A DNA stretch of 41,786 nt from Campylobacteraceae bacterium. Its GTDB lineage: Bacteria > Campylobacterota > Campylobacteria > Campylobacterales > Sulfurovaceae. The position numbers and the translations under genes are program-made. The stretch spans positions 1 through 41,786 of the forward strand of contig JALVXD010000135.1 of the NCBI GenBank assembly GCA_027038295.1. The letters run 5' to 3'. The notes beneath the pieces are model-generated. The model was not told the DNA's origin and did no database searches. It was given only the letters and a program-made list of their open reading frames with translations. Each line of letters opens with the position of its first letter. Within the stretch, counting starts at the first letter, position 1. Below are positions 3,109 through 21,020 of the stretch, in pieces.

Positions 3109-4260
3109 TTACCCATTTACAGAAAATTTCATAGGTACATCAAAAAGAAGTGACCACAGTTGCATGGTCTCTTCTTGAATCTCTCTAATATTAGTATTTT
3201 TAGCCCAATATAGATTTGATATACCAATTATCATATCTGGATGATAGAAGAAAGTTTGTAAATAGGGATAGGCTAAAAGCTGTTCATAGCAAATAAACAC
3301 ACCTGATTTTATACCATCAATAAAAACTATTGGCTGATTATATATTGTGGCTTCTGTTCCACTATTTGTAAAAGGTTTCCACATCTCAATAGGTACAGGA
3401 ACTCTCTGTTTATAAACTATTTTACTACTGTTATAATCCAAACGCATAAGCACATTAATATTTTTTGTATATCTAAAATTATAGATAGTTGCTCCTGCAA
3501 AAATGGTCTTATTTTTATCTAAATAACTCCATATCATAGATTGTAAATCACTATAATTTCCCAAAGCATTTTCAGGTAAAAGGAGATTACTTTTATTATT
3601 ATTTTGAACCAAATAAAAAAACTTTTTAATACGTTTATACTCTTCTGATTTATCAAATGTAATAGGTGAATACTCAATACTACTATTAATAACTCTAAGA
3701 TTACTATCTACTTGTATATTTTGAGTAAAAAACAGTTTAATAGAGAATAAAGAGAGTATAGAAAATAAAGTAATAACAATATTCCTATACTTTTTTAACT
3801 GATAACCTTTCCATGCAAATAGTAAAAGATAAATAAGAAGAAACTCAAATAATAATCCTAAAAAACCAAATTTTGGAAAGAGTATAGCAATGGTAGGAAG
3901 AGGGTTAAGCCAAGAGATAAAACCTATAGGTGGCAAAGTAACTATTAAAATAACTATAGGTAAAAGATAAACCCTCTTTTGAAAAGATTTACTCCAAATT
4001 AAAACCCAAGATAAGGAAGAGAGGAGTGCTACACCTCCCCAACTCAAAAAAGCATAAAATAGATTATTATAATAGTGTTCAACTCCAAAAAACAATCCTC
4101 TGCTTCCTACAAGATAATATCCTAAAACAAACAAAAAAAGATACCATCGCTTTTCCAAAAGAAGATAAGCCAAAAATAGAGATAAAGACAATATTGTCAT
4201 CTCTAAGGTCAATCCCCAAGAGAGATAAGCTATTAGCCCTCCTAAAAAAAAGTACATCAT
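3109..4260 (-). CDS. TraB-like conjugal-transfer membrane protein with nitrilase-type C-terminal domain
   Basis: 383 residues. The first ~180 are strongly hydrophobic with several predicted membrane helices. The remainder resembles a carbon-nitrogen hydrolase (nitrilase/Lnt) domain: LLPENALG near residue 229 (catalytic Glu), a Lys in VYKQRVPVPIEMWKPF near 285, and Cys in VFICYEQLL near 320. This architecture matches the TraB proteins of Ti-type plasmids, which are related to apolipoprotein N-acyltransferase (family knowledge). It overlaps the traG-like coupling-protein gene by 4 nt, supporting a transfer role. It could instead be an Lnt paralogue, but it is shorter than housekeeping Lnt (about 500 residues). 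Confidence 0.7.
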   Translation of the reverse strand: MMYFFLGGLIAYLSWGLTLEMTILSLSLFLAYLLLEKRWYLFLFVLGYYLVGSRGLFFGVEHYYNNLFYAFLSWGGVALLSSLSWVLIWSKSFQKRVYLLPIVILIVTLPPIGFISWLNPLPTIAILFPKFGFLGLLFEFLLIYLLLFAWKGYQLKKYRNIVITLFSILSLFSIKLFFTQNIQVDSNLRVINSSIEYSPITFDKSEEYKRIKKFFYLVQNNNKSNLLLPENALGNYSDLQSMIWSYLDKNKTIFAGATIYNFRYTKNINVLMRLDYNSSKIVYKQRVPVPIEMWKPFTNSGTEATIYNQPIVFIDGIKSGVFICYEQLLAYPYLQTFFYHPDMIIGISNLYWAKNTNIREIQEETMQLWSLLFDVPMKFSVNG

Positions 4261-6065
4261 AACTTTACATCATCTATAAAAGAGCTATCTCTCTTAATAA
4301 GTGTTGCTGGAACCCTAGACCTATCTAAAAAAACTTGATCCTTAAAAAAAAGTATCTGTTTGCCATATATTGGTGCTTGACCTGCAATAAAAATCAACAT
4401 ATCACCCCCTTCTAATACCTCTCCATTACTTGCTTTTTTTGCACTCTTTAATCGCATACACTCATCAACAGTTAAGAGTGGTCGAGAAATCTCTTGTAGA
4501 CTCTCTGTTACTTGCCCCAACATAACAGAAATTCTATCTCCTGATGTAGTAGTATAACTTTTAACAACAGTAGTAGTTCCTGTCATCTTAGAGAGAAGTT
4601 CTGCTGTCTCAACCTTATTGGGTGCATAAGCAATACGTACTTGACAATTTGACATAATAGACTCATCTTTACCATATGCTTCATAGAGTTGAGAAATATC
4701 TTGAACAATAATATATGCCTTTATTCCATAACCTGCCATAAATGCTAAACTCTCTTGAAATATAGATAGTTTGCCAAGACTAGTAAACTCATCAAGCATT
4801 AAGAGCATTCTATGCTTATACGTTTGAACACTTTTACCATCTTTAAACTCTAAATCTTCCAATAAACGTCTAAGTAACTGATTCATTATAAGTCTAATAA
4901 GAGGCATAATCCTACTTTTATCAGTTGGATTAAGTACCAAATAAAGGCTCATTGGTTTATTAGCATTCATTAAATCATTAATTTTAAATTCACTCTTAGA
5001 AGTATTATTAGAGATAACAGGGTCAATATATAAATTTAAAGAAGATGATGCTGAACCTACAACTCCAGATAACTCTTCTGGAGCTTTATTAAGCATCTCT
5101 CTTCCTACAAGGGAGATAAGTTTATGATTACTAGTAACCATCTCATTTAATAAATCTTGTATATCAACTTGATTCAATACTTCATATACATCAGTAAGAT
5201 TTGGATAACGTCTATTCTCCTTTTTTGATTTATAAATTGCATAAATTATTAAACCACTAATAAAAGAAAAGCTCGACTTCTCCCAATAGTCTCTTAATCC
5301 TTTTCCCTCTGTATCAACAATCATCATAGCAATATTTTGAACATCACCAATCTCATAATCTGTATCTATACGAATCTCTTCTAAAGGGTTAAACTTAGCA
5401 CTCATACCATTCGATGCAGTAGGGTCAAACTTTAAAACTCGGTTATTAGCATACTGTTCTCTCCAACCTGATGTTAACGCCCAATTTTCACCTTTTATAT
5501 CAAGAACAATAACTGATTCTCTCCAATCTAACAGGGTAGGAAGAACTAGCCCTATACCTTTACCTGAACGCGTTGGTGCAAAAGCTAATATATGTTCAGG
5601 ACCATTATGTTTAAGGTATTCTAACTTTGAATCATCTTCAAAACCTCCAATATAAACACCCTCTTTTTGTCTATATAATCCAGTTTTTTTTATATCAGAA
5701 GTATTCATCCAATGAGCTGTTCCATGCACATCATCATGAGTTTTACTTCTTCTAAGTGCAAGAAGTCGAATTAAGATAAATACTATAAAAACAGCAACAA
5801 AGACAAAAAGCATTGTAATATTTAATGTTCTAAAAAAGATACTATATTGAGTAAAGTAATCAAACTGCCAAAGAATCCAATCAAAGGGATTATAGAATGA
5901 TTGAAAAAGTGATTCTCCTAAATTTTCATGATAATCAAAATGCTGTGCTACATACTGAGTAGCAAGAATATTGACCATGAGAAATAATGAAATCACTACA
6001 ATGAAACTAATAATATAATTTCCTACTTGATTACTGCTTCTAGCTCCATAACTTTGATGATTCAA
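4257..6065 (-). CDS. traG: Type IV secretion coupling protein, VirD4/TraG family
   Basis: 602 residues. Two membrane helices lie at roughly residues 16-38 and 78-105, followed by a cytoplasmic ATPase. Walker A is APTRSGKG near residue 165 and Walker B is MLLMLDEFTSLG near 425, with the conserved LVLPTLLDW and VLDIKGENW stretches between. Such proteins carry the relaxase-DNA complex to the secretion channel. It sits downstream of the relaxase gene on the same strand and overlaps the TraB-like gene. No VirB/Trb channel genes are in the window, so the channel must lie outside it or be supplied by another element. Confidence 0.93.
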   Translation of the reverse strand: MNHQSYGARSSNQVGNYIISFIVVISLFLMVNILATQYVAQHFDYHENLGESLFQSFYNPFDWILWQFDYFTQYSIFFRTLNITMLFVFVAVFIVFILIRLLALRRSKTHDDVHGTAHWMNTSDIKKTGLYRQKEGVYIGGFEDDSKLEYLKHNGPEHILAFAPTRSGKGIGLVLPTLLDWRESVIVLDIKGENWALTSGWREQYANNRVLKFDPTASNGMSAKFNPLEEIRIDTDYEIGDVQNIAMMIVDTEGKGLRDYWEKSSFSFISGLIIYAIYKSKKENRRYPNLTDVYEVLNQVDIQDLLNEMVTSNHKLISLVGREMLNKAPEELSGVVGSASSSLNLYIDPVISNNTSKSEFKINDLMNANKPMSLYLVLNPTDKSRIMPLIRLIMNQLLRRLLEDLEFKDGKSVQTYKHRMLLMLDEFTSLGKLSIFQESLAFMAGYGIKAYIIVQDISQLYEAYGKDESIMSNCQVRIAYAPNKVETAELLSKMTGTTTVVKSYTTTSGDRISVMLGQVTESLQEISRPLLTVDECMRLKSAKKASNGEVLEGGDMLIFIAGQAPIYGKQILFFKDQVFLDRSRVPATLIKRDSSFIDDVKL

Positions 6066-6173: not shown

Positions 6174-7763
6174 TCACAACCCCATCCCCTTACGCTCACC
6201 AACCTCCTGAATCTTACTCATTCTCTTATCCAAAAACTCTATCTTAAGGTCATAACGCTCATTAACCATCATCAGACGCTTTTTAAACTCTAAACTCCCT
6301 TGAACATCTAAACGTTTACCAAACTTCTCTTTAGCCATCTCTAAAGAGGTGAGTATGGCTCTGTCACTATCTTCAATGGTCACTTTCAAGTAAGAGCCTG
6401 TATCAACTATCTTTCCATGCTCTTCAATCTCATAGACTGCTTTTCCCTCTTTGGTTATCTGCAGCTTTAGACTCTCCCAAATCTTATGATTGATTTTACC
6501 CTCTGGATGTCGTAAAATATTCTCATTGGGTTTAAAGACCATTTTAGTTCTTCTAAGAGCTTCAAGAGCCAACTCATCTCCACCTAATGCTCTCTCTAGT
6601 AGAAACTCTTTATAGGAGAAGAGCCTATTGGCTTTATGAATTGCGTTTCTCTTTTTAGCAAACCGTTCACTAAGCTCCTTTAACTCTGCTCGTCTATGAG
6701 CAAAAATAGTCTGTCTACGTTGATATTTTTGAGAAGAGGAGAGGGTAGGGTGATGGTTAATCTGGTCCAACTGCTCCTTATATTTTAACCCAATACTCTC
6801 ACGTAGTGCCAATCGACTCTTTTTCTCTAAATCAAGCTCCTCTTTTTTAGTAACTCTTCTTCTTTTGATAAGCTCTTGATACTCCTCCCATAGAGAGGAT
6901 TTAGGCATACCAAAGCTCTTCTTAACCTTAGAGCTTGTCTCATAGCTTTTAAACGCTCCAAATCGCTTCTCTAAGCTCTTTTTAGACAATATCCTATGAA
7001 CATCACTCGCTTTTACAAAAAGCTTTCTCTTCTTATCTCCAATCACTAAACCATTGGCTCTTGGTTTTATCTCTAAATTGTATTGGGCTAAGAGTTCTTG
7101 TAAATCTTTTAAATCACTTTGAGGATTTGCTATAAGCTCTTTTATCTCCTCTAAAACCTCCTCTTTAATCCATGTTAAGAGATTCTTCATGCCTGAGTGT
7201 ATCTCCTGGTCTTTATACTTATGCTCTTTGGTTTGAGAAGACTCTTGATGATTATTTTTTTCATCTTTTGATAACCCATCAAACTGAATAGGGTGGTTAT
7301 CCCTCTTTAACTTGTACTTCTCCTCTAGCTCTTGAGCTTTCTTTTGAAGTTTCATTTTTGACTTCCAAGGGTCTACTAAAAGATTTGTATGAGGATTTAA
7401 TCTATTAACAGCAATATGTAAATGAAAGTTATTGGTATTATTGTGACTCACAGATAAACGATGATGCTCTTGCATATTGAGACTCTTTAAAAGCTCCAAC
7501 TCTATATCAGCCAATACCTCATGAGAAGGAACCTCCTCCTCTTGAAAAGAGACCACAAGATGTAAAGATTTATCACTATTGACCATCTGATTTAACTCTT
7601 GCATCTGTTTAATATAGGAGATATTCTCCTCTATCTGTTCAAACGGACAATTAGAGAAATCATAATCCTCTACTTTATCCCCATCATTTTTAAAATCAAG
7701 AAGATACGCTGCCAATGCTTGAAATGAGCCTTTTCCTTTAGAGGATACCTGTTTTACTATCAT
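6174..7763 (-). CDS. traI: P-type relaxase (RP4 TraI-like, MOBP)
   Basis: 529 residues, about the size of a relaxase without a large C-terminal extension. The N-terminus (MIVKQVSSKGKGSFQALAAY) carries Tyr20, candidate for the nicking Tyr as in RP4 TraI. The metal motif FHLHIAVNRLNPH near residue 112 is the H-x-H of motif III, and KLKRDNHP near 152 matches a segment of RP4 TraI. It would cut the ATCCTG-C core in the nearby oriT and stay bound to the 5' end. It begins 2 nt downstream of traJ, so the genes are coupled. The C-terminal half is Lys/Glu-rich and helical with no recognised domain; no primase is present. Confidence 0.92.
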   Translation of the reverse strand: MIVKQVSSKGKGSFQALAAYLLDFKNDGDKVEDYDFSNCPFEQIEENISYIKQMQELNQMVNSDKSLHLVVSFQEEEVPSHEVLADIELELLKSLNMQEHHRLSVSHNNTNNFHLHIAVNRLNPHTNLLVDPWKSKMKLQKKAQELEEKYKLKRDNHPIQFDGLSKDEKNNHQESSQTKEHKYKDQEIHSGMKNLLTWIKEEVLEEIKELIANPQSDLKDLQELLAQYNLEIKPRANGLVIGDKKRKLFVKASDVHRILSKKSLEKRFGAFKSYETSSKVKKSFGMPKSSLWEEYQELIKRRRVTKKEELDLEKKSRLALRESIGLKYKEQLDQINHHPTLSSSQKYQRRQTIFAHRRAELKELSERFAKKRNAIHKANRLFSYKEFLLERALGGDELALEALRRTKMVFKPNENILRHPEGKINHKIWESLKLQITKEGKAVYEIEEHGKIVDTGSYLKVTIEDSDRAILTSLEMAKEKFGKRLDVQGSLEFKKRLMMVNERYDLKIEFLDKRMSKIQEVGERKGMGL

Positions 7764-7765: not shown

Positions 7766-8125
7766 CTAATCCAAAAGCTTTCTAGCTATCTGGAGTAACT
7801 CATCCTCTTTAGCTATTAAATCATCTACCAAATCAGATATATCTTCATAACGTCTATCTCCTAAATTACCCCAAGAACCATTTTCACTCTCTAGCCATAG
7901 TTTAAACAATCCTCCTAAACGTCCTAAGTCTGCTTTGCACTTTACGAGTTCGGATAAGGCTCTTTGGTCTACTACGGATTTGATAGGGTAGTTCATCGCT
8001 AGGTTTCTTATATATTTTGAATTGCTGAGTCCACTGTTTTTTGCTTTTTCTGAGATGATGTTGTACTCATACTCGGTTAGTCGGCTGTCGATATGTTTGG
8101 TTCTTTGTTCTTTTTTTGTTGGCAT
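7766..8125 (-). CDS. traJ: Relaxosome protein TraJ (oriT-binding, ribbon-helix-helix type)
   Basis: 119 residues, close to RP4 TraJ. The N-terminal half looks like a ribbon-helix-helix DNA-binding domain (HIDSRLTEYEYNIISEKAKN). The C-terminal half has KADLGRLGGLFKLWL, which closely matches the GDLGRLGGLLKLWL segment of RP4 TraJ (recalled from family knowledge). TraJ binds beside the nick site and recruits TraI. The gene starts about 220 bp from the GAATAAGG element of oriT and is followed after 2 nt by traI. Confidence 0.88.
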   Translation of the reverse strand: MPTKKEQRTKHIDSRLTEYEYNIISEKAKNSGLSNSKYIRNLAMNYPIKSVVDQRALSELVKCKADLGRLGGLFKLWLESENGSWGNLGDRRYEDISDLVDDLIAKEDELLQIARKLLD

Positions 8126-8225
8126 TTTTCTTCTTTTCTATTGCTCTATATATTACTTTAAAGTGAAATTATTTATTTTTTAAACTCTCTATTTTTCTTT
8201 TGAAAAACTTCTCTTTTGGTTTTTT

Positions 8226-8338
8226 CTTTTTCAAATTCTTTCTCTTTTTTGAAAAGTTCTTTCTTCTCTTTTCAAATACTTTCTCTTTTTTTTCAAGAAT
8301 TTTATCTTTTTTTTCAAATACTTTCTCTTTTTTTTTCG
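8226..8338. repeat. Homopyrimidine tract with imperfect direct repeats beside oriT
   Basis: On the + strand this stretch is almost all C and T, interrupted mainly by short A runs. It is built from imperfect copies of a unit like TTTTCAAATACTTTCTCTTT, clearest near 8271-8290 and 8312-8331, with diverged copies around 8229-8250 and 8292-8312. It lies between traJ and the nic region. The - strand is correspondingly purine-rich. It could favour strand separation or unusual structure, or be a slippage-expanded spacer. Confidence 0.6.
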
Positions 8339-8344
8339 TTGAGC

Positions 8345-8430
8345 CATTTTATGGCGAATAAGGTTCAGGACTATCATATTTGATAAAAACTTTGTTTTTT
8401 GTCGGATATTATCCCATCCTGCCCTTTTTT
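8345..8430 (+). other. oriT: Origin of transfer (oriT), P-type nic region
   Basis: GCGAATAAGG at 8354-8363 matches the start of the TraJ-binding region of RP4 oriT. About 60 nt further is ATCCTGCCC at 8416-8424, identical to the RP4 nic core; the predicted nick lies between G8421 and C8422 on the + strand. A short palindrome TATCATATTTGATA (8372-8385) lies between. The order traI-traJ-oriT-traK is the RP4 order. If the RP4 chemistry holds, DNA right of 8422 enters the recipient first, with the + strand as transferred strand. Confidence 0.82.
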
Positions 8431-8584
8431 TATTTTTTGTTACTTTACAATAGTACTCTATTTTTATTTAAATTTACTATTTTTTGGTTTTTTTTGTTAA
8501 AATATCAAAAATAGAAAACTATTGGAAACTTTTGTAAACTATCGAATAGGTTTTGAGGTTTACTCCAAAAAGAGAGGTGATTTT

Positions 8585-8974
8585 ATGGCTAGTGGTAAAA
8601 TGGCTGTTGGTGAAGCTGTTATTGAGTTTTATGCTGCACTTGATACCATCAAGGATTATTATGAGAATAGGGGTTATAGAAAAATCTCACTTCTTCACAA
8701 GCTTCTCAAAGAGAAGCTTGGTTGGAAGATGGGATATGATACTTTTCGCTATCACTTTAACAAAGAGTTTAAGAAGAGTTTTCACTCTTCTTCTAACGCT
8801 TCTAAAGAGCAGAGTAGTAAAAATAGTGAGGGTAGTAAGGGTGATGTTAGGGGTGAGGCTTCTTCTTTGGAGAAGAAGCCTCATGAACCAATTATTGCTA
8901 CATTTTCCATGAGTGACATTAAACCTTATAATCCTCATACTTCTCCTATTGATGAGAGTAGGATTTTGAAGTGA
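8585..8974 (+). CDS. TraK-like oriT-binding protein
   Basis: 129 residues from the ATG at 8585, chosen over the upstream TTG at 8522 because GAGAGGTGAT precedes it at the right distance and the family begins near this point. The first ~65 residues (AVIEFYAALDTIKDYYENRG, then KMGYDTFRYHFNK) resemble the RP4 TraK pattern of a helical segment ending in FSYETFRSHV. The C-terminal half is Ser/Lys-rich and probably disordered. TraK binds and bends oriT in the relaxosome. The position across oriT from traJ, divergently transcribed, is as in RP4. Confidence 0.72.
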   Translation: MASGKMAVGEAVIEFYAALDTIKDYYENRGYRKISLLHKLLKEKLGWKMGYDTFRYHFNKEFKKSFHSSSNASKEQSSKNSEGSKGDVRGEASSLEKKPHEPIIATFSMSDIKPYNPHTSPIDESRILK

Positions 8975-8985
8975 GGATTTTTAGT

Positions 8986-9795
8986 TTAAAAGAGTCTTCC
9001 TGTTGCAAAGACTTCTAACTCTTGCTTGGAGTAGAGTAGTTTATTTTCAATAGTATCACAAGGTAGAGTAACTTTTTCTTTTTGGGGTTTGGATTGACTA
9101 TTTTTATCTTTTGGTCTTAACTCTTTTTTATTTTTTTTATTTTTATTAGTTTGGTATTGTCTTATTGAGGCGTTCATAATATATTTTGGGGTATACCATG
9201 TTGCAAATATTTCATTGGATAAGGCGTTACCGTGTATTACCTCTGCTGATATACCCAATAGGGAGAGTTGGATAAAGCTCATATAGACACAAAGAACATC
9301 TACATCTATTGCTTGAACCTCCATTATATTTTGGTATTCAAAACCATACTCTCTTTTTATTGCATCAGCTCTTGCGATTATCATTACTCCAGAGCCACAA
9401 CATGGCTCTACCATTGACTCTTTCTCTTCAATAGGATTACTACCTACAATGGAAGCCATAAATGATGAAACATAGTATGGGGTGAAGAATTGACCTTTGT
9501 ATTTAGAACCAAGCTTCAAATCCATAAAACATTCACCTAAGAAGTCACCCATTCTATCCTCTAAAGCCATTACTAGATAACTTAAGAGTTTAGGGAATAT
9601 CTCAATGACTTTTTTATTGTATTTGGAAATAGTATTCATATACTCCTTTTCAAGCTCTTCACTTTTAATAAAAGGTTGATAGAGGCTAATCGCTGTCATT
9701 TTACAAAAATCTGTAAAGAGTTCCCATGCTTGGAACTCATAACAGTTTGACTCTATTAATTTAATAAACTCATTTTGAGCAGTTTCATAATTCAT
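8986..9795 (-). CDS. N-6 DNA methylase-like protein lacking the NPPY catalytic motif
   Basis: 269 residues. GQFFTPYYVSSFMA near residue 101 and VEPCCGSGVMIIARAD near 129 match the FTP motif and SAM-binding motif I of N6-adenine methylases. QAIDVDVLCVYMSF near 162 fits the motif II acidic position. After GNALSNEIFATWYTP, where catalytic motif IV (N/D-P-P-Y/F) should follow, no such motif is present. The rest is Lys-rich with no target-recognition domain. Similar short orphan proteins occur on mobile elements (family knowledge). It may bind SAM or DNA without methylating. It heads or belongs to the three-gene minus-strand set down to 8986. Confidence 0.72.
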   Translation of the reverse strand: MNYETAQNEFIKLIESNCYEFQAWELFTDFCKMTAISLYQPFIKSEELEKEYMNTISKYNKKVIEIFPKLLSYLVMALEDRMGDFLGECFMDLKLGSKYKGQFFTPYYVSSFMASIVGSNPIEEKESMVEPCCGSGVMIIARADAIKREYGFEYQNIMEVQAIDVDVLCVYMSFIQLSLLGISAEVIHGNALSNEIFATWYTPKYIMNASIRQYQTNKNKKNKKELRPKDKNSQSKPQKEKVTLPCDTIENKLLYSKQELEVFATGRLF

Positions 9796-9806
9796 AACAT
9801 CACCAC

Positions 9807-9995
9807 TTAATAGATTATCTCTATAGAGTCATCAAGAGCATCTATATTTAAAAAACGTTTTACTTCATTTTCAGCCTCAGATAAATCTAAACATTTTAGA
9901 TATAAAACATCTTCACTTCCATCAATCACCACAAAAAAGCTTTTTTCAGACTCTTTACTACTCTTACCCTTAGGGTTTAATACAGTTTGGCTCAT
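9807..9995 (-). CDS. Small acidic hypothetical protein
   Basis: 62 residues, not recognised. It is acidic (SEAENEVKRFLNIDALDDSIEIIY at the C-terminus in part) and predicted cytoplasmic. It lies between the 116-residue unknown gene and the methylase-like gene with gaps of about 10 nt, so it is probably co-transcribed. Small acidic proteins in leading regions of mobile elements are sometimes anti-defence factors; nothing in the sequence proves that here. Confidence 0.55.
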   Translation of the reverse strand: MSQTVLNPKGKSSKESEKSFFVVIDGSEDVLYLKCLDLSEAENEVKRFLNIDALDDSIEIIY

Positions 9996-10004
9996 GCTCT
10001 TCTC

Positions 10005-10355
10005 CTACATCTCAAAGAGGTTTAATTGAATAGGAGCCAAAGAGACTTTTTCTAAATCAATCTTCTCATTTATTATTTTAAAAAAGTAGTTTTTAATCTC
10101 TTGATACGAAGATACACTTTGAGTACCATTGACAAAAACTGAACGATAACCTGTTGCAGTAAATCCCTCAAATCCATTACTTAGAGCATAAAAACTAAAA
10201 TGTACTAAACCAGTACGTTTAAAGTAGTGAGGTTCATACACCACCCCAAAGCTAAGATGATTAATTTTAAAGAAGAGGGTGAATACTAAACCATCACTTC
10301 TTTTATTAATTGACTCATTAAGCAGTTGCTTCTTATCATATATTTTATAATCCAT
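10005..10355 (-). CDS. Hypothetical protein of the predicted leading-region operon
   Basis: 116 residues, no recognised domain. It is rich in aromatic residues and predicted beta-strands (VFTLFFKINHLSFGVVYEPH) and ends in the motif-like tail LAPIQLNLFEM. QLNLF-type tails can resemble sliding-clamp binding peptides (QxxL-F), but this is only a resemblance. First gene of the minus-strand set 10355-8986. The large palindrome at 10419-10675 lies just upstream, where its promoter should be. Confidence 0.55.
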   Translation of the reverse strand: MDYKIYDKKQLLNESINKRSDGLVFTLFFKINHLSFGVVYEPHYFKRTGLVHFSFYALSNGFEGFTATGYRSVFVNGTQSVSSYQEIKNYFFKIINEKIDLEKVSLAPIQLNLFEM

Positions 10356-10418
10356 TTTTAAATCCTTTTCACTCTTTTTTTAAATTTTCTTGTTTATGAG
10401 CGTTTTGAATCCCCTACC

Positions 10419-10675
10419 TCTTTTTTATTTTCCAAGGTGGAGAGACTTTTGCCTCATATTCAAGATTTTCTCGTCCAATCACGCTTCGTTATCCCTATTG
10501 ACGAATGAAGAAGAGATAAAAAATACTTAGTTTGGAATAAAATACTTTTTATTCCAAAGTCAGTATTAACGCAGTGGTTTTAGCTAGAATGAAGTGAGGA
10601 ATATGGGCTAACGAAGCGTGAGTGGATGAGAACAGCCAGAGTGACAAAACTCTCTTTACCTTGAGAAGAAAATAA
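10419..10675. repeat. Large nested imperfect palindrome (~250 bp) upstream of the 10355-8986 genes
   Basis: Arms share one centre near 10545-10550. The core is TTTGGAATAAAA (10531-10542), loop TACT, TTTTATTCCAAA (10547-10558), a perfect 12-bp stem. Next out is CACGCTTCGTTA (10480-10491) against TAACGAAGCGTG (10609-10620), also perfect. The outermost arms, about 10420-10455 and 10643-10675, pair imperfectly (17 of 21 in 10433-10453 versus 10643-10663). No protein-coding signal is seen. It could fold as RNA or as single-stranded DNA. Confidence 0.7.
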
Positions 10676-11311
10676 AAAGAAATAAAAGAATCGGAACGAT
10701 AGTGTAGATTTTCCAAATGAATTGAATAAGCTATTGAAAAAGAACTTAGAAAATATTTGGCTCCTCTTTCTCTTTGACCTTTTATGAGTGGGTATGCAGC
10801 GAACAGCGAAATACTCTCTTATAAAAATTGGGGCAAAGATAAAGAGGAGGTCAATATTTTATCAGTAGTGGAATGGGGGTTTCATTTTTTTAGGAACAAC
10901 GTGGATAAAAAAAGGAAAGCCTTGTTCTACGGTCTCTTTTCAATAGATTGTTCAATGGCTTAGGGATTAGAACACGCAGTGCGACGTACCATGTACTCGC
11001 CTTGGAACGTAGTGGAAAGGTTCAAGCCCGACCCTTGGGTAAGCCCCACACACCCATCTCATTAATAGAGCATTTATAAAGCATTATCCAACCATTGATA
11101 AAAACCCCCTATAATAAAACCATGAAAGAGATGAGAATAAAACACTCCTTTGAATAACCTCATAAAAAAGTGCAAAACTAACACATTACTCCCTTGATAG
11201 AAACCTCCTTTGAAATTGCACTCTCTTTCAAAAGTATGACAATATGAAATAATTCAAAGTAATTAAAAAAACAATCACTATAATTATAATATTAAACCAC
11301 AAGGAGAAATA
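10676..11311. other. Non-coding stretch with a second imperfect hairpin; no gene seen
   Basis: A second nested inverted repeat occurs at 10755-10855: CTCCTCTTTCTCTTTG (10761-10776) against CAAAGATAAAGAGGAG (10834-10849), 15 of 16 pairs, with an inner arm TTTTATGAGTGGGTAT versus ATACTCTCTTATAAAA. Further on are the palindrome GTACCATGTAC near 11000 and G+C-richer sequence than its surroundings. No ORF, tRNA or rRNA was recognised from 10676 to 11311. The density of structure suggests a regulatory or transfer-related function. Confidence 0.45.
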
Positions 11312-11422
11312 ATGGAAAACACAATAACCATAGGTACAGTAATCATACTAACAACCCTATATTATCAGAAGAAGAAAAGAAAACCTATACAAAAGACAAC
11401 CATAAAATACCCACTCTTTTAA
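11312..11422 (+). CDS. 36-residue single-pass membrane peptide (hypothetical)
   Basis: ATG preceded by AAGGAGAAATA, an excellent ribosome site. The peptide begins MENTITIGTVIILTTLYY, a likely membrane helix, followed by a strongly basic segment (QKKKRKPIQK) and the tail YPLF. The charge pattern predicts a cytoplasmic C-terminus. Not recognised. It stands alone on the + strand in an otherwise non-coding region. Small transfer-associated or toxin-like membrane peptides look like this, but no antitoxin or antisense RNA is evident. Confidence 0.5.
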   Translation: MENTITIGTVIILTTLYYQKKKRKPIQKTTIKYPLF

Positions 11423-11885
11423 AGAATAAAAGATAGCGTTATATACATTCAAAACTCCTACACAAAATGACTTTAGAGAGTAAAACAATACTATACTCCC
11501 TATAATATAATTTACTCCCTAAATACATTAAAAAATACTTCAAAAACTCGGAGTCAAATCGGAATTTATTATATTAAACCAACTTCGGCAAAAAATATCA
11601 AACTTCGGCAATTATTCGCATTTATAAGTATTTTATAATATTTAGGCTCCCTGTTTTCTTGAAAAGAGGAGAAGAAAAAGAGTGATAATTTTTTACCAGA
11701 AATTTGATTATGTTAGCCATCTTTAAAATACCCTAATAAAAATAACAAAAATTCCGATAAACCATCTATTTATTAAACAAGTCCCGAATAAATAACTAAA
11801 ATTCCGAGAAAAATAAATAAATTTTTCGCTTTGTGCCAAATAACTATTCTGCTTCTAATGATTTATTATTTCATCGTATTTTATA
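11423..11885. repeat. Gene-free A+T-rich stretch with short direct repeats
   Basis: No gene was seen. Direct repeats: AACTTCGGCAA at 11581 and 11601 (20-bp period, two helical turns); a 20-bp unit matching AATAACWAAAATTCCGAKAA at 11741-11760 and 11791-11810 (18 of 20, 50-bp period); TACTCCCTA twice within 11490-11520. Helically phased short repeats in A+T-rich DNA are typical of protein-binding arrays (partition, origin or operator), but no Rep or Par gene is adjacent to assign a role. Confidence 0.4.
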
Positions 11886-13016
11886 TTAATCAATGGCTAT
11901 TGCATACCGTACATTACGCCCAGCACTACCCTCTACCTGTTCAATAAGTCCATAATCGACTAACCCAGTAATGTCTCTCTTTGCAGTAGCAATAGAGGTA
12001 CTCACCATATTTGCATACTTTTTAGTGCTTAATCCACCTTCAAAGTTTTCAATACCTTTATCAAGTAGCTTATTGAGTACCTTTAACTGTCTCTTGTTTA
12101 GAGGGTACTCTCTTGCCTTGTCCCAAAACTTCGTTTTTTGAGTAATAATTTTTATCTGCTCAAGTGAGTTTTCTATAGCACTGTTAATAATATTAGTATG
12201 CCATACTATCCATTTGGTAAAATCAAACTCTCGATTATAAAAAAGATTTTGTGACTTTTCTAAAGTATCGTAGTAGCCTTTTTTATCTTTTCTAATTGCC
12301 GTTGAGAGTGAATAGTATTTATGGTCAAGTCCAAGCTCTTTGGAGAGGATATAGTTTACTATTGCTCTAGCAATTCGTCCATTACCATCATCATAAGGGT
12401 GAATTGATACAAACCAAATATGAGCAATAGCACTCTTTATGTAGGGGTCATCTTTACTACTGTTAACATACTCTAAAAAGCTATTCATCTCCTGCCTAAG
12501 TTGCTCATATGGAGGTGCTACATAGTGAACAGTCTCTCTATAACCCTTATTTGACACAACACTCATCTCATCAGAACGATAGGTAGCAACATCAATTTTA
12601 TACCCATCACTATAACCTATAGGAAAGAGTATACTGTGCCAACCATGTAGACGCTCCTCTGTAAGTGGTTCATGATTATAACTACTATCAAGAAGTAGTG
12701 TCACAAGCCCATCTGTATGGTGCGTAGAGCTATCATTAACATAATCAAAACTCTCATCAAGCTTTTTTCTTACTGAAGAGCGAACACTATCACGACTTAG
12801 AATCTCCCCCTCAATTTCTGAAGATTGTAAAATTTCATCAATGGAAGCATCTATCAAAAATGAGTTAATCTTTTTATCATTAAGTCCAGATATTGCACCT
12901 TCTAATCTACCTGTGTTACGAGAAACTTTTGAGAGTATAGAACTAAGAGCAGAATTTCCATAGTTAAATTTTGGATATTCATCATGTTGCCAAATCCATT
13001 TTTTTATAGTTTCCAT
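11886..13016 (-). CDS. Fic-family AMP-transferase with DUF4172 N-terminus and autoinhibitory motif
   Basis: 376 residues. The N-terminus (METIKKWIWQHDEYPKFNYG) is of the DUF4172 type that precedes Fic domains. SSEIEGE near residue 67 fits the inhibitory (S/T)xxxE(G/N) motif, making this a class II Fic protein. The catalytic loop is HPYDDGNGRIAR near residue 205, complete with the His and the G-N-G-R phosphate-binding part. The C-terminal ~80 residues look like a winged helix (STSIATAKRDITGLVDYGLI), suggesting DNA binding and possible autoregulation. Such proteins AMPylate target hydroxyl groups. It is a single-gene unit; a good promoter with overlapping inverted repeats lies upstream. Confidence 0.9.
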   Translation of the reverse strand: METIKKWIWQHDEYPKFNYGNSALSSILSKVSRNTGRLEGAISGLNDKKINSFLIDASIDEILQSSEIEGEILSRDSVRSSVRKKLDESFDYVNDSSTHHTDGLVTLLLDSSYNHEPLTEERLHGWHSILFPIGYSDGYKIDVATYRSDEMSVVSNKGYRETVHYVAPPYEQLRQEMNSFLEYVNSSKDDPYIKSAIAHIWFVSIHPYDDGNGRIARAIVNYILSKELGLDHKYYSLSTAIRKDKKGYYDTLEKSQNLFYNREFDFTKWIVWHTNIINSAIENSLEQIKIITQKTKFWDKAREYPLNKRQLKVLNKLLDKGIENFEGGLSTKKYANMVSTSIATAKRDITGLVDYGLIEQVEGSAGRNVRYAIAID

Positions 13017-13563: not shown

Positions 13564-14136
13564 ATGGCAATTAGTTTAAATAAAGGTGGAAGAATAGACC
13601 TTGGAAAAGAAGCACCAAGCTTAAAAAATGTAGGATTTGGATTGGGTTGGGATGAGAATGATAGTGATACAGGAGCAGAGTTCGATTTGGATGCATCTGT
13701 TTTTATGCTTGCATCTAATGAAAAAATTCCTACAGATAATCATTTTATTTTTTATAATAATTTAACTTCACCTGATGGTTCAGTTGAACATACAGGAGAC
13801 AATTTAACTGGTGATGGTGATGGTGATGATGAGACCATTAATGTTGATTTAGACAAAATAGAAGAACGTGTTGAAGAGTTGGTTTTTGTGGTGACCGTTC
13901 ATGATGCAGATGTTAGAAATCAGAATTTTGGACAAGTACGAAATGCTTACATTCGTTTATATGACCTAGCAACTAATCACGAAATTGCACAATATGACCT
14001 AGAAGAAGATTTCTCAACAGAAACAGCCATTGAGTTTGGACGACTTTATAAGAAAAGTGGTTCATGGAGATTTAAGGCAGTTGGAGCAGGATTTAATGCA
14101 GGGCTTCAAGGTTTTGTTGATAAGTTTGTAGGTTAA
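13564..14136 (+). CDS. terD: TerD-family stress protein (first copy)
   Basis: 190 residues, standard for TerD. It begins MAISLNKGGRIDLGKEAP and has FDLDASVFML, HFIFYNN, SPDGSVEHTGDNLTGDGDGD and NQNFGQVRNAYIRL. The acidic loops GDGDGDDE and the FDLD segment are the calcium-binding sites known from TerD structures. First gene of an operon with terC, three terY genes, a phosphatase and a kinase. A close paralogue starts the opposing operon (26356-25778). Predicted cytoplasmic, acting with TerC at the membrane in response to metal, oxidant or phage stress (family knowledge). Confidence 0.95.
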   Translation: MAISLNKGGRIDLGKEAPSLKNVGFGLGWDENDSDTGAEFDLDASVFMLASNEKIPTDNHFIFYNNLTSPDGSVEHTGDNLTGDGDGDDETINVDLDKIEERVEELVFVVTVHDADVRNQNFGQVRNAYIRLYDLATNHEIAQYDLEEDFSTETAIEFGRLYKKSGSWRFKAVGAGFNAGLQGFVDKFVG

Positions 14137-14139
14137 TAG

Positions 14140-15132
14140 ATGCAATATTTTAAAGGTTCATTAATTGTTACTATTATTGGTTTGATATTGGCTTTCTACA
14201 TAGGTGGTTTTTATGCTTTATACATTACAGCTCTTTTAGCTATATTGGAAGTGTCTCTCTCTTTTGATAATGCAGTTGTAAATGCAAAAATTTTGGAGAC
14301 GATGGAACCAAAGTGGCAAAAAAGATTTATAACCTATGGTATACCGATTGCTGTTTTTGGAATGAGATTTGTATTTCCTATTATTATAGTTGCTATTGCA
14401 AGTAGCTTAGGTATTTTTGAAACATTTATGCTTGCGATAAATGAACCTGAAAAATACAAAACAACACTAGAGTCTGTTCATCAACTTATATATGCTTTTG
14501 GTGGTTCTTTTCTATTGATGGTTTTTTTAGATTTTCTTTTTGATGAAGAGAGAGAAGAAAAATGGGTGAAATTTATTGAAGATAGTAAAGCAATTGATAA
14601 ATTTGGAAAGGTCGATAGTATAAAAATTTTAATTGCTATTGCCTTAGGATTAGTGTTAACTTCAGTCACCGATAGTTCTACTATTGCAATGGCTTATTTT
14701 TCTGGAGTTTTCCTTCATGCTATTATTGTCTCACTTGATGATTTACTCAATACTGATGGAGTTAGAAGTGGTATGATGGGACTTTTATATCTAGAGATAT
14801 TAGATGCATCATTTAGTTTTGATGGCGTTATTGGTGCATTTGCTTTAAGTAGTGATATATTTATTATAATGATAGGTTTAGGAATCGGAGCTATGTTTAT
14901 AAGAAGTTTAACATTATATTTTGTTGCTAAAAAGACTCTAACAGAATATAGGTATCTTGAACACGGAGCATACTATGCTATTTTAGCACTATCTATTATT
15001 ATGTTTATTAAAATATTTACTAATGTAAATGAAGTTCTTGTGGGAACAATAGGAATTACTTTTATTGCAGTGGCACTGATACACTCTATTTTAGAGAATA
15101 CAGAAGAAACTAAAAAGGAAAACAATGCATAG
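14140..15132 (+). CDS. terC: TerC-family integral membrane protein (DUF475 type)
   Basis: 330 residues with about eight to nine hydrophobic helices. Two family signatures are present: LEVSLSFDNAVVNAK near residue 36 and LEILDASFSFDGVIGAFALS near 219, each with the membrane-buried acidic residue typical of TerC/YkoY proteins. These proteins are implicated in metal handling and in supporting metal-dependent exoenzymes or stress complexes (family knowledge). It starts 3 nt after terD and overlaps the first terY gene by 8 nt. Confidence 0.9.
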   Translation: MQYFKGSLIVTIIGLILAFYIGGFYALYITALLAILEVSLSFDNAVVNAKILETMEPKWQKRFITYGIPIAVFGMRFVFPIIIVAIASSLGIFETFMLAINEPEKYKTTLESVHQLIYAFGGSFLLMVFLDFLFDEEREEKWVKFIEDSKAIDKFGKVDSIKILIAIALGLVLTSVTDSSTIAMAYFSGVFLHAIIVSLDDLLNTDGVRSGMMGLLYLEILDASFSFDGVIGAFALSSDIFIIMIGLGIGAMFIRSLTLYFVAKKTLTEYRYLEHGAYYAILALSIIMFIKIFTNVNEVLVGTIGITFIAVALIHSILENTEETKKENNA

Positions 15133-15766
15133 AAGATTACCCATTTATATTTTAGTTGATACATCTTTTTCTATGACAGGAGAGCCTTTAAAGGCTGTTC
15201 AAAATGGATTGGATACTTTAGTCAAAGCGTTAAGGCAAGACCCACAAGCTTTAGAAACAGCTTATCTTTCTGTTATTGAATTTAATTCAAAAGCAAAACA
15301 ACTAGAAACACTAAAAGATTTAACATCATTTCAAATGCCAACATTAGAGGTTAGTGGAGCAACATCTATGGGTGAAGCACTCTCTCTATTGGTTGAGTGC
15401 ATTAAAAATGAGGTATTAGTTGAAGGGCGTAGAGATTGGAAACCAATGGTCTTTTTACTGACAGATGGAATTCCTACTGATAATCTACAAAAAGGTATTA
15501 ATGAACTAAAAAGTATTAAAATAGGTACATTTGTTGCCTGTGCTGCAGGTTCTGGGGCTAAGATAGAGTATTTAGAAAAAATAACCCCATTGGTAGTAAC
15601 TTTAGATGAAGCAAACACTGAATCCATATCCTCCTTTTTTAAGTGGGTATCAGCAAGTATCTCTGTGGGAAGTCAAAAAGTTGAGCAAGGTAAAGAGATT
15701 GACGCATTTGGAGAACTTCCACCACCACCAAAAGAAATTAATATTATTGATTTAACAAAACATTAA
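15125..15766 (+). CDS. terY: TerY-type von Willebrand factor A protein, copy 1
   Basis: 213 residues. Complete MIDAS metal site: DTSFSM near residue 12, the Thr in SGATSMGEAL near 77, and LTDGIPTD near 114. The tail carries LPPPPKEINI, shared with the next gene. TerY proteins bind a divalent metal through this site and act with a PP2C phosphatase and a kinase (the TerY-P triad described from genome analysis). Cytoplasmic, no signal peptide. Overlaps terC by 8 nt and is followed 10 nt later by a second copy. Confidence 0.9.
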   Translation: MHRRLPIYILVDTSFSMTGEPLKAVQNGLDTLVKALRQDPQALETAYLSVIEFNSKAKQLETLKDLTSFQMPTLEVSGATSMGEALSLLVECIKNEVLVEGRRDWKPMVFLLTDGIPTDNLQKGINELKSIKIGTFVACAAGSGAKIEYLEKITPLVVTLDEANTESISSFFKWVSASISVGSQKVEQGKEIDAFGELPPPPKEINIIDLTKH

Positions 15767-15776
15767 AAGGCAGAAT

Positions 15777-16421
15777 ATGAATCGAAAATTACCCGTTTAT
15801 CTTTTAATTGATTCAAGTGGTTCCATGAATGGAGAACCTATTATTTCAGTAAATGAAGGGCTTAGAGCCTTATTAAGTGCTTTACGGCAGGATCCCTATG
15901 CTTTAGAAACAGTCATGCTCTCTGTTATTACTTTTGATCGTGATGTTAAAGAAATTTTACCTCTAACAGCAGTAGAAGATGTACAACTAGACGACATTGT
16001 CCCTCCTATTTCTGGCCCAACACATTTAGGTGAGGCATTGGAGTATCTTATAGCTCGTTATCATACAGACATCAATAGAAAAAGTAAAAGTAGTAAAGGA
16101 GATTTCTCGCCCATGCTTTTTGTAATGACTGATGGGAAACCTTCTGATTTACAACTCTTTAATGAAAAAGCACAAGAAATAAAGCAACTAAACTTTGCAT
16201 CTATTATTGGTTGTGTTGCAGGACCAAAAGCAAAAAAAGAAGAACTCTTAAAGTTTGCAGATCCTGTTGTCTCTTTAGAATCTAATGATTCCAGCTCTTT
16301 CTCTGCATTTTTTAAATGGGTTTCAGACTCTATTACAGCAGGAAGTAGAAGTGGTGGATTAGAAGTAGGTGGTGCAAATAAACTTCCTCCTCCTCCAGCT
16401 GAAATAAATATAGTGATATAG
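15777..16421 (+). CDS. terY: TerY-type von Willebrand factor A protein, copy 2
   Basis: 214 residues, clearly paralogous to the flanking genes. MIDAS parts: DSSGSM near residue 12, SGPTHLGEAL near 78 and MTDGKPSD near 120. It ends LPPPPAEINIVI, the same proline-rich tail as copy 1. The conserved tail in two copies, absent from copy 3, suggests a docking peptide for a partner such as the kinase or phosphatase; that is inference. The next gene starts 2 nt after its stop. Confidence 0.9.
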   Translation: MNRKLPVYLLIDSSGSMNGEPIISVNEGLRALLSALRQDPYALETVMLSVITFDRDVKEILPLTAVEDVQLDDIVPPISGPTHLGEALEYLIARYHTDINRKSKSSKGDFSPMLFVMTDGKPSDLQLFNEKAQEIKQLNFASIIGCVAGPKAKKEELLKFADPVVSLESNDSSSFSAFFKWVSDSITAGSRSGGLEVGGANKLPPPPAEINIVI

Positions 16422-16423
16422 AT

Positions 16424-17479
16424 ATGAGAAGATTACCTATATTTTTTTTATTGGATGTTTCAGAATCTATGGTCGGACAACCTCTTAATGCAGTAGAAGA
16501 GGGTATGAAACGAATCATTACCTCTTTACGGCAAGACCCAAGTGCTTTAGAAACAGCCTATATTTCAATTATTGCTTTTGCAGGAAAGGCTAAAGTACTC
16601 TCTCCTCTTACCGATATTATCTCTTTTTATCCTCCTAAATTACCTATTGGAGGAGGTACATCATTGGGTTTAGGACTTATAACCCTAATGAGAGAGATTG
16701 ATGAAAAAGTAGTTTTAAAAAGCTCAACACAACAGCGAGACTGGAAACCTTTGGTCTTTTTAATTACTGATGGAAAACCTACTGACAATACAAACGAAGC
16801 AGTTAGAGAGTGGAAAGAAAACTATGCGTCTAAAGCAACCATGGTGGCTATCACCTTGGGTGATTATGCCAATGTCTCTATTTTAAAGCAACTTACGCCA
16901 CATGTTTTACTTTATGAGGGAAGTAATGATGATGACTTTAAACGTTTTTTTGATTGGATAAGTGCCTCTGTCCAGAGCCATAGCCAAGCAATAGAACAGA
17001 ATAGAGGAGACAAAACAGGTATTGACCTACAGAAAATGGGAACAATACTCAAAGAAATTTCTGATGAAAAGTCTTCCAATGATACCCCAAATATTGACAA
17101 TAATACCGTTGTGCTAACAGGACGTTGTCAAGGGAATAAACAACCCTATTTAATAAAGTATGAGAAAGCCATTACCGAGTTGGTTCTTCAAAAATATGTT
17201 ACAGGTAGAAACTATAAACTTAATGGATGTTACCCTATTACCGATGAGTATTTTGAATGGTCAACCAAAGAGAGTAATCATGAAATTAATATTTCTCAAT
17301 TGGATGGTTTTCCAAGTTGTCCCTATTGTGCCAATACCTCTGCCTTGGCTTCATGTGGATTTTGCAAAAAAAACATGTGTATAAGTGGTGAGAGTGTAGC
17401 TATTTGCCCTTGGTGTAATAAAAAAAACAACTTTATATTTACAGATGAAGACTTTAGTATTCAACGAGGAAAAGGTTAA
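16424..17479 (+). CDS. terY: TerY-type vWA protein with C-terminal zinc-ribbon domain (TerY-C), copy 3
   Basis: 351 residues. The N-terminal ~200 are a vWA domain with DVSESM, GGGTSLGLGL and ITDGKPTD as MIDAS parts. After a linker (~200-225), a second domain starts at VVLTGRCQGNKQPYLIKY and ends in a Cys-rich module: CPYC, CGFC, C and CPWC, consistent with one or two bound zinc ions. This is the TerY_C arrangement. The proline tail of copies 1 and 2 is missing. Its stop overlaps the start of the PP2C gene. Confidence 0.9.
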   Translation: MRRLPIFFLLDVSESMVGQPLNAVEEGMKRIITSLRQDPSALETAYISIIAFAGKAKVLSPLTDIISFYPPKLPIGGGTSLGLGLITLMREIDEKVVLKSSTQQRDWKPLVFLITDGKPTDNTNEAVREWKENYASKATMVAITLGDYANVSILKQLTPHVLLYEGSNDDDFKRFFDWISASVQSHSQAIEQNRGDKTGIDLQKMGTILKEISDEKSSNDTPNIDNNTVVLTGRCQGNKQPYLIKYEKAITELVLQKYVTGRNYKLNGCYPITDEYFEWSTKESNHEINISQLDGFPSCPYCANTSALASCGFCKKNMCISGESVAICPWCNKKNNFIFTDEDFSIQRGKG

Positions 17480-18918
17480 TGATTGACTATAGTGAGTATA
17501 TTGAAAGCTCTATAGAAAAGTTTACTGAAGAGATAGGTGTGAAGAAAAGTACACTCTTTAATAGCAGTAGCTTAAAAGAGGAGTTAAAAGAGGAACTTAC
17601 GTCTATTTTTAAAAAATTTAATACAAAGTTGCATGATATGAGTAAAGAAATCCTTCAACCTATAGAGGTTAAAGTTAAAATAAACAATCTGATTGTAGGT
17701 CAAGAAGTTGAACATGATATAGAAGTTCTTGATTTTAAAAAAGAAGAAGAGGACTCTTTCTATTTTGAAAAAATAGAGGGGCTAGAGAAGATTGATGGTA
17801 TTCGTTGGGATAGAGAAGAACAAAAACTTGTTGGTAAAGCTACAACTACAGGAGATTTTAAGTTATTCGCTTCTGGAACATTTAACTCTACTACTGCTTA
17901 TGAACGAAAAATAGAGAGTAACTTTAGATTAACGGTTATTCCTGACCCACGCTCTTTATGGAAAAATATTGAACCCGATGGAGCAATGCCTTATCATAAA
18001 ACTCATGAAGCCTCTGATTCTTTAATAACAGAAGATAATGTAAGGCTCTTATTTGCCTCTAAACGAGGTCGTTCACATGCACATAATGGAACCTTTAGAG
18101 ATGATGATGGACGTATTGTTTCTACGCCTTCGGGGTGGTCTATTTTATGTGTTGCTGATGGTGCAGGGAGTTGTTCTCTTTCGCGAGAGGGGTCACGCAT
18201 TGCCACCCAAACAGCAACCGATACTTTAATAGAACTTTTATCCTCCAAACGAGGTGATGAATTGGTTAATACTGTCTTAAACAATAGTAAAAGCTCTTCA
18301 TCAGAGTTAGAAGAGAAACTTCGAGAAAAAGTTGAAGAGATTATGAACAGTTCAGCCTATCATGCACTAAAAGCTATTTATGGTGAATCAGAAGAGACAA
18401 AAGAAGCAGTAAAAGAGTTTTCGACAACCCTCCTTTTAACAGCACATAAAAAGGTAGAAGAGGGGCATCTTATTATCTCTTTTTGGATTGGAGATGGAGC
18501 AATTGCTATTTATAATAAAAACACAACCATAAAGATATTAGGTGAACCAGATGGTGGTGAATTTGCAGGTCAAACACGATTCTTATCGAATGATATTTTT
18601 CAAAATAAGGAATCACTAAGTCAACGAATCTCAATAAATTTTATAGAAGATTTTACAGCAATTATATTGGTAACAGATGGCATATCAGACCCCTATTTTC
18701 AGATAGATGATGATTTAAGTAAAGTTGAAAAATGGGATACGTTATGGAGTGAATTGTCTTCCCTTGTAGAAGAGGAAGAGATAAGTGTAGCTGAGAGAAA
18801 ACTTTTGGAGTGGTTAGATTTTTGGTCTATTGGAAATCATGATGATAGAACATTAACTTTACTCTTACCTTATAACCCTACACCAATACCGTCTAAAGAA
18901 GAGTCTGATGTCCAGTAA
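17479..18918 (+). CDS. PP2C-family protein phosphatase with an extra N-terminal domain
   Basis: 479 residues. Residues 1 to about 155 form an unrecognised domain containing a beta-rich, adhesin/Ig-like stretch (VKVKINNLIVGQEVEHDIEV). PP2C motifs follow: SILCVADGAGSCSLSREGS near 217, FWIGDGAIAIYN near 335, LVTDGISDPYF near 395 and NHDDRTLTLLL near 453, with the metal-binding aspartates intact. In the TerY-P triad it is expected to reverse phosphorylation by the adjacent kinase. It overlaps both terY copy 3 (1 nt) and the kinase gene (11 nt). Confidence 0.9.
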   Translation: MIDYSEYIESSIEKFTEEIGVKKSTLFNSSSLKEELKEELTSIFKKFNTKLHDMSKEILQPIEVKVKINNLIVGQEVEHDIEVLDFKKEEEDSFYFEKIEGLEKIDGIRWDREEQKLVGKATTTGDFKLFASGTFNSTTAYERKIESNFRLTVIPDPRSLWKNIEPDGAMPYHKTHEASDSLITEDNVRLLFASKRGRSHAHNGTFRDDDGRIVSTPSGWSILCVADGAGSCSLSREGSRIATQTATDTLIELLSSKRGDELVNTVLNNSKSSSSELEEKLREKVEEIMNSSAYHALKAIYGESEETKEAVKEFSTTLLLTAHKKVEEGHLIISFWIGDGAIAIYNKNTTIKILGEPDGGEFAGQTRFLSNDIFQNKESLSQRISINFIEDFTAIILVTDGISDPYFQIDDDLSKVEKWDTLWSELSSLVEEEEISVAERKLLEWLDFWSIGNHDDRTLTLLLPYNPTPIPSKEESDVQ

Positions 18919-20413: not shown

Positions 20414-20967
20414 GATAAACAACTTTCGATATATATCTTCTCTATCCGTCTTAAGATAGAGGTTACAAAGGTATCTGATTTAGTATCTAAAACATCAACT
20501 CTAATAGTCATCATTCCTACATTATTAGCTCCGATTATATCTGTAAACACTCTATCTCCTATAAAACAAATAGTATCTAACTTAATCTTTTCTCCGAAAT
20601 AATTAGAAGCATTCAAGAAAGTATTTATGCAAGGTTTTTTATCTTTTTTTGAATCTATAACATCAATACCAAAAAGATTAAAATACTTTGTTCTTTTATC
20701 AGATGGCTCATTTGTTAGTAAGCAAAAAGAATCTTTTCCAAAAATAGATTGAACCTCTTCTATCTTTTTTTGCATAGATTTTGATAAAAAATTATTGCTT
20801 TGGGAAACAATTGTTTGGTCTATATCACTGATGATATACTTTATACCTTTCTTTTTTAATAACGAGAAAGGTATATCTTGAAATGTTTTATAATTATAAT
20901 TTACACAATAATTATTTTTATTTAAAAGTTTAAAAAAACAATAAAATTTATTTATAATTTGTATCAA
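20401..20967 (-). CDS. HAD-superfamily phosphatase (YqeG-like, HAD-IIIA)
   Basis: 188 residues. HAD motifs: I, SDIDQTIV near residue 46; II, LLTNEPSDK near 88; III, Lys in KPCINTF near 112; IV, FIGDRVFTDIIGAN near 136, as in YqeG-like enzymes. A phosphomonoester of a small molecule is the likely substrate. Last gene on the - strand of the Ter island, separated from the next HAD gene by ~50 bp containing a hairpin, so its link to the biosynthetic set is less sure than for the others. Confidence 0.8.
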   Translation of the reverse strand: MIQIINKFYCFFKLLNKNNYCVNYNYKTFQDIPFSLLKKKGIKYIISDIDQTIVSQSNNFLSKSMQKKIEEVQSIFGKDSFCLLTNEPSDKRTKYFNLFGIDVIDSKKDKKPCINTFLNASNYFGEKIKLDTICFIGDRVFTDIIGANNVGMMTIRVDVLDTKSDTFVTSILRRIEKIYIESCLSQTN

Positions 20968-20988
20968 TATTAACCTTAAATTCTTTTC

Positions 20989-21006: not shown

Positions 21007-21020
21007 ATTTCTAGTAAATT

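Follow-up and report, generated by a model that had tools for sequence, protein, structure and literature searches.

Single-strand promoters are proven for enterobacterial plasmids, and Frpo is known to serve both as a promoter and in second-strand initiation. The available text of one report describes Frpo1 and Frpo2 as required for early expression, shown in vivo (PMC9849209), and that of another describes many conjugative elements that contain Frpo homologues and candidates, with anti-defence genes of the leading region lying on the T-strand (PMC11541004). The word Campylobact is absent from the main text of PMC11541004, the one searched paper containing both Frpo and Campylobacter is by its title about Fusobacterium, and the papers that we searched gave no report of such elements in Campylobacterota. 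When we folded the region upstream of ssb in F, the T-strand formed one 317-nt hairpin (Frpo2) with an A/T-rich end stem, an asymmetric interior loop and a base lying 46 nt from the ssb start, which gave a z of −6.4 in its own shuffle test. Here we describe a locus in Campylobacterota, beside the transfer origin of a plasmid from a bacterium of sulphur-oxidising type, that appears Frpo-like by its anatomy, a variant that would be new for this phylum, and whose folds probably let the first genes or second-strand copying start while the DNA is single-stranded.

Gene content and direction of transfer

The window, that is, the whole stretch of DNA analysed, comprises all 41,786 nt of contig C135 from an assembly of 2.8 Mb in 293 contigs. 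From left to right it carries a MOBP relaxase with TraG/VirD4, leading genes, the palindromes and cargo, and the features that matter here are:

4257 to 6065, minus strand: TraG/VirD4
6174 to 7763, minus strand: MOBP relaxase
7766 to 8125, minus strand: NikA-like protein
8415 to 8422, plus strand: MOBP nic motif CATCCTGC, cut after ATCCTG, a regex match to the consensus
8986 to 9795, minus strand: N6-adenine DNA methyltransferase (PF02384, E 2e-10; phrog_5696, E 1.7e-67), a T-strand-templated leading gene
9807 to 9995, minus strand: 62-aa ORF, kept in relatives
10005 to 10355, minus strand: 116-aa protein, first gene past element A
11886 to 13016, minus strand: fic

The 116-aa gene was present in 9 of the 175 family genomes, and its product was assigned no family in family searches; comparison of the methyltransferase with the DNA methylase of F gave no meaningful similarity. 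The cargo to the right of the palindromes consists of Fic, tellurite-type genes and a type I-F CRISPR-Cas set. The tellurite/stress cluster (13564 to 26356) encodes two TerD proteins, a TerC-like protein, TerY-type VWA proteins, PP2C, a kinase and StiP, and the CRISPR-Cas set, here on a plasmid contig (32829 to 41134), comprises Csy1, Csy3, Csy4, Cas3 with a Cas2 domain, and Cas1. Two close relatives from the same genus, G163 (contig C65) and G170 (contigs C1 and C82), have the relaxase, leading genes and palindromes in common with the window.

The MOBP nic consensus is given as (C/T)ATCCTG(C/T), with the relaxase remaining on the 5′ end behind the cut, in the available text of PMC3772185. Since CATCCTGC lies on the plus strand and the relaxase stays on the 5′ end, the plus strand is the T-strand, and motif and gene geometry together show that after nicking at 8415 to 8422 it leads rightwards. 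The motif occupies the equivalent place in both relatives (L030, 12253; L032, 1669), which backs the premise of the initial annotation that the plus strand enters first. Its further point, that the incoming strand is the template of the genes at 10355 to 8986, agrees with the nic direction and the minus-strand coding: with the plus strand transferred, the 116-aa, 62-aa and methyltransferase ORFs are templated by the T-strand, and the layout of nic on the plus strand with leading genes on the minus strand is the same in the window, G163 and G170. That stretch had been taken for one gene; the leftward coding stands, and the single gene gives way to three ORFs (10355 to 10005, 9995 to 9807 and 9795 to 8986). 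The hairpins had also been placed upstream of fic, which was mistaken, as fic sits to their right; lying beyond the palindromes, on the far side, it cannot be driven by element A. Some 2.0 kb separate element A, in the leading region, from the nic motif, and the diverged copies A′ and B′ described below are far from nic. A plus-strand gene directly after nic (8522 to 8974), for which the T-strand is not the template, is kept in both relatives and has moderate single-stranded structure inside it.

Elements A, B and C

Folding of the plus strand from 10400 to 10870 as single-stranded DNA gave −87 kcal/mol with a z of −9.7, none of 100 dinucleotide shuffles being as good, so that the palindromes of the initial annotation are real. 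Tested separately, A (10405 to 10700) gave a z of −8.9 and B (10700 to 10960) a z of −10.2, each with 0 of 200 shuffles as good, and in a sliding scan A and B were the strongest structures of the 41.8-kb window. The parts are:

10388 to 10421, minus strand: spacer between A and the RBS, in which a local hairpin is possible in gene-sense RNA
10422 to 10678, plus strand: element A, a long imperfect hairpin in the ssDNA fold, candidate single-strand promoter
10721 to 10956, plus strand: element B, a Y-shaped three-way junction in the ssDNA fold
10955 to 11047, plus strand: element C, a small fold after A and B

The stem of A corresponds to the palindrome of about 250 bp that had been reported just upstream of the first leading gene. 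It spans 257 nt, with an A/T-rich end stem, interior loops lower down and a base 67 nt from the gene start. The second hairpin that had been proposed, at 10755 to 10855, does exist as a structure, and it proved to be only one arm of the larger Y of B, which consists of a 22-pair outer stem with the arms B1 (10744 to 10866) and B2 (10868 to 10930).

The end of C is the exact synteny breakpoint with both close relatives. To its left the sequence is conserved and to its right it is unlike in all three plasmids, which marks the end of C as a cargo boundary or an insertion hot spot. C recurs after A or B (L030, ending at 14969; L032, ending at 5125; L039, 152 to 252 and 13554 to 13633), and B is present or absent between A and C.

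Two other identities for these folds were rejected. Integron attC sites do not fit, as the inner repeat of A has its GTT/AAC cores, judged by eye, in the opposite order. A tRNA-Leu relic in B, suggested by the motif GGGTGTGGCG, was set aside after ARAGORN found no tRNA in the window; few genomes have the motif itself (9 of 175 when one mismatch is allowed), and control matches were similarly low. An Rfam search of the window gave nothing at gathering scores and weak E-value matches only.

Conservation and compensatory change

In the relatives the arms have been kept together with the genes, the A–B region being 91–92% identical in G163 and G170 and the neighbouring 116-aa protein 67–72% identical. 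A was held by only 3 of the 175 family genomes. G163 and G170 each contain one diverged copy, A′ (72–74% identity), directly upstream of another minus-strand gene, p116b (L029, 908 to 1258 in G163; L033, 3661 to 4053 in G170), which had no match to the 116-aa gene in the same query set. A thus stands before two unrelated gene sets, each time in identical orientation. In G167, homologues of the 116-aa, p116b and methyltransferase genes form one row (L034, 15565 to 17755).

The alignment of five A copies (that of the window, and A with A′ from each of G163 and G170) had 88.4% of its cells paired, compared with 42–60% for slid partners, a figure that favours the window structure because the structure was taken from the window copy alone, one row of the alignment. 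Thirteen of 106 pairs were changed on both sides, with a covariation score of 0.152 against 0.027–0.068 for slid partners, and the firmer evidence here comes from the two-sided changes that separate A from A′. For B, seven copies were available (window, one; G163, three; G170, two; G114, one), and each of the seven, folded alone, yielded the same Y. In the divergent copies the 5′ arms of the outer stem are only 54–75% identical and still pair over 19–24 bp; across all seven, 30 of 93 pairs were changed on both sides (score 0.246, slid partners 0.102–0.158). B′ precedes a minus-strand gene in both G163 and G170, and the copy on L054 (G163:C48) is not before the start of a T-strand-templated gene.

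Two B copies of G163 (L054, 1134 to 1416; L029, 220 to 500) are 93% identical over 322 nt, which suggests that B may have spread recently with cargo; one of the two lies among genes that, by eye, resemble a G170 DNA/RNA nuclease. The G114 copy (L040, 18029 to 18252) has an integrase-like gene nearby and is directly followed by two small genes of toxin-antitoxin-like appearance, both identities again being judged by eye. G097, from another genus, carries several folds in a row ahead of a related row of genes (L038, 18040 to 18700; z −15.7, 20 shuffles).

Wider searches returned little beyond these copies. With a covariance model built on the gene-proximal part of A, five sites were recovered in 3 of the 175 genomes, all already known. 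The exact 19-nt core of A had no match in viral contigs and matched eight stretches in genome contigs, four of them G163/G170 and four single matches in unrelated taxa; allowing two mismatches, an order-wide search hit 15 of 398 genomes, scattered like the reversed control, with an exact match in the window alone.

Strand preference of the folds

A G·T mismatch on one strand is an A·C mismatch on its complement. Selection on the T-strand, or on RNA of T-strand sense, is therefore expected to leave an excess of G·T, a duplex cruciform none, and a leader RNA of the leftward genes the opposite. On structures predicted without G·T pairs, the T-strand ratio of G·T to A·C was 37:8 for B, 22:7 for A and 15:3 for Frpo1 and Frpo2 of F combined, in cells that are not independent of each other and with a base composition that favours G·T in B (expected ratio 1.4–2.5) and hardly in A (0.8–1.4). 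The ratio was 26:6 when only one A, one A′ and four B representatives were taken, and 7:0 for the G097 folds (L038), counted on the plus strand. Counting on arm alignments gave the same direction, more weakly: 4:2, 6:2 and 5:4 for A of the window, G163 and G170, 5:5 and 4:3 for A′, 3:0 for B1 of the window and 8:3 for Frpo2.

When dinucleotide shuffling was used to control for composition, each of the 12 copies (five A, seven B) had a T-strand of greater stability than the complement, the T-strand being set by nic on the same contig for eight of them, by synteny with G163 for the two G170 copies on C82, and by homology alone for the L054 and G114 copies. The composition-corrected strand bias was strong for B (z −3.2 to −7.2) and modest for A (z −4.2, −3.9, −1.8, −1.6 and −1.2, weak in three of the five), and Frpo1 (z −3.4) and Frpo2 (z −1.5) of F had the same sign. 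That the T-strand is the more stable one in 12 of 12 copies speaks against two readings, a leader RNA of the leftward genes and a cruciform in duplex DNA, and favours the T-strand as the selected molecule, RNA of the same sense being less likely. The strongest single result of this analysis is that it is in the transferred strand that the folds act, as with Frpo. The excess of G·T over A·C on the T-strand, checked on Frpo, also allows folds active on incoming single-stranded DNA to be tested for from sequence alone.

Promoter motifs and the arms of A

The available text of PMC3656092 describes Campylobacter σ70 promoters as having an extended −10 and no clear −35 box. The best T-strand site common to the five A copies reads TAGAAT, TAGAGT or TAAGAT, and in the window it is:

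10585 to 10590, plus strand: TAGAAT, a −10-like site bordering a 14-nt interior loop on the gene-distal (would-be non-template) arm of A

A site as good or better arose in 207 of 1000 column shuffles, so that A has no significant −10 or −35, and TAGAAT as a promoter element is a lead only. Conserved columns among the five copies were most frequent in the gene-proximal arm (64 of 90) and the spacer (26 of 30, alignment columns 336–365), compared with 46 of 91 in the other arm, as expected if the gene-proximal half is the 5′ end of the mRNA too. Gene-proximal arm and spacer can also fold locally in gene-sense RNA (z −2.4).

Other relaxase loci

At 16 further, more distant relaxase loci of the family, z fell below −3.3 in 1 of 1914 leading windows, as against 15 of 1425 lagging windows; in the three plasmids with A it did so in 13 of 673 leading windows, eight of them A or B. 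This 280-nt scan does not flag Frpo in F and is thus not a sensitive detector; G136:C119, G170:C50, G111, G128, G050 and G107:C12, with too little sequence, were left out of it. None of the 16 loci had the methyltransferase, 62-aa or 116-aa genes. Outside the 16-locus scan, G010 (L035) has a methyltransferase beyond the relaxase and 0 windows past z −3.5. In G154, a short, promoter-like repeat that includes a small hairpin precedes most of six related leading-type genes, and long hairpins are lacking before most of them:

L037, 10041 to 10190, 11026 to 11124, 12597 to 12910, 14915 to 15056, 16168 to 16273 and 16903 to 16994: G154 repeats

This row resembles a duplex establishment regulon. The 16 negative loci and the short repeats of G154 indicate that a single plasmid group has the fold-back unit as one solution, which is no rule for the family.

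Proposed function and alternatives

From the anatomy described above, we propose that A and B belong to a control unit of the leading region that acts on the transferred single strand and that the main role of A would be that of a Frpo-like single-strand promoter, each at a probability of roughly 0.6; that A and B function at the level of single-stranded DNA in some form is quite probable. The plus strand brings in the template of the 116-aa, 62-aa and methyltransferase genes first, with A and B about 2 kb behind nic. On entry, A would fold into a duplex that serves host RNA polymerase as a promoter, and the polymerase would read the gene-proximal arm and then the genes, such that the methyltransferase and its partners could be made before a second strand exists. 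The transcript from A may also prime second-strand synthesis, and conversion to duplex would remove the fold and switch the unit off. B could be a second promoter of that kind, or a site (ssi) at which the complementary strand is primed. More tentatively, B may represent a new class of conjugation element, a Y formed only by the T-strand, with conserved loops, that acts as promoter, priming site or both; it is similarly no better than possible that B, on that reading, forms with A and C a composite entry unit in Campylobacterota, its shape unlike the single-hairpin Frpo.

The T-strand bias fits any function in single-stranded DNA, including that of ssi- or sso-like sites loading primase, a PriA-type primosome or RNA polymerase, for which the place before genes would be secondary. 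B would suit such a site, being a Y whose loops are conserved and which no gene of its own follows in the window, and the function is known for ICEBs1 (PMC4595007, available text). Nevertheless, we consider it unlikely, given that conservation ties A, the spacer and the RBS side to the gene start as one unit, that A recurs in one orientation before two different gene sets, and that B′ lies before a gene in G163 and G170. As Frpo does both, the promoter and ssi readings are not mutually exclusive. The strand bias would be explained equally well if A and B acted as T-sense RNA, whether antisense, small RNA or the leader of rightward genes: G·U pairs contribute more stability to RNA than to DNA, B is more strongly biased than Frpo, and A′ lies 5′ of a rightward tra operon. 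This becomes rather improbable in light of the unlike sequence to the right of C in all three plasmids next to a conserved left side, the absence of a significant T-sense promoter motif, and the 0 Rfam matches in the window at gathering scores.

The opposite orientation, in which A is the structured 5′ leader of a leftward mRNA from a duplex promoter to its right, draws on the superior conservation of the gene-proximal arm and spacer and on the local gene-sense hairpins. In all five A and all seven B copies, however, the long fold has lower stability in the gene sense than in the T-sense, and a local leader hairpin fits alongside a single-strand promoter without being a substitute for it, making this reading very improbable. 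Finally, the near-identity of two G163 copies of B and the variable presence of B between A and C would be in keeping with MITE-like mobile fold-back repeats devoid of a regulatory role. We give this next to no credence: compensatory changes with a strand bias are unexpected for dead repeats, and A keeps its place relative to gene starts and occurs in few genomes of the family.

Comparison with known systems

The single-strand promoter reading of A is closest to Frpo and Frpo2 (ssiD) of F. Both have a long imperfect T-strand hairpin with its base tens of nucleotides from the first gene, repeats before separate leading operons, T-strand-templated genes and a T-strand stability bias, and the second copy in F (88.8%) parallels the pair of A and A′ in G163. 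Unlike Frpo, A and B belong to a host group in Campylobacterota and lack detectable sequence similarity to it (blastn of 8126 to 11886 against 72,556 plasmids, F included, gave no match), A is accompanied by the Y-shaped B and by C, and the −10/−35 of A is only a candidate. By description only, ssi2 and ssi3 of ColIb-P9 (PMC9849209 and PMC11541004, available text) are also alike, as is the sso of ICEBs1, an ssDNA-acting part of a conjugative element, in the available text of PMC4595007.

According to the available text of PMC7736820, the M.EcoGIX unit of pESBL has an N6-methyltransferase gene behind a leading-region hairpin, readable from the T-strand; the methyltransferase of the window is likened to it by gene kind and position. 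The EGeRS of pLS20 and p576 are repeated upstream sequences that mark an establishment regulon, a plan to which the G154 repeats are similar, and the available text of PMC8708921 argues that they are not ssDNA promoters, whereas A and B are fold-backs on the template strand. A is repeated like EGeRS, its gene-sense promoter motif is not significant, and its fold is T-strand-biased. In sum, the G·T excess supports elements of this kind in a distant phylum without sequence similarity to Frpo, beside a methyltransferase gene of the anti-restriction kind, and the Y of B adds a second shape that is open to direct assay.
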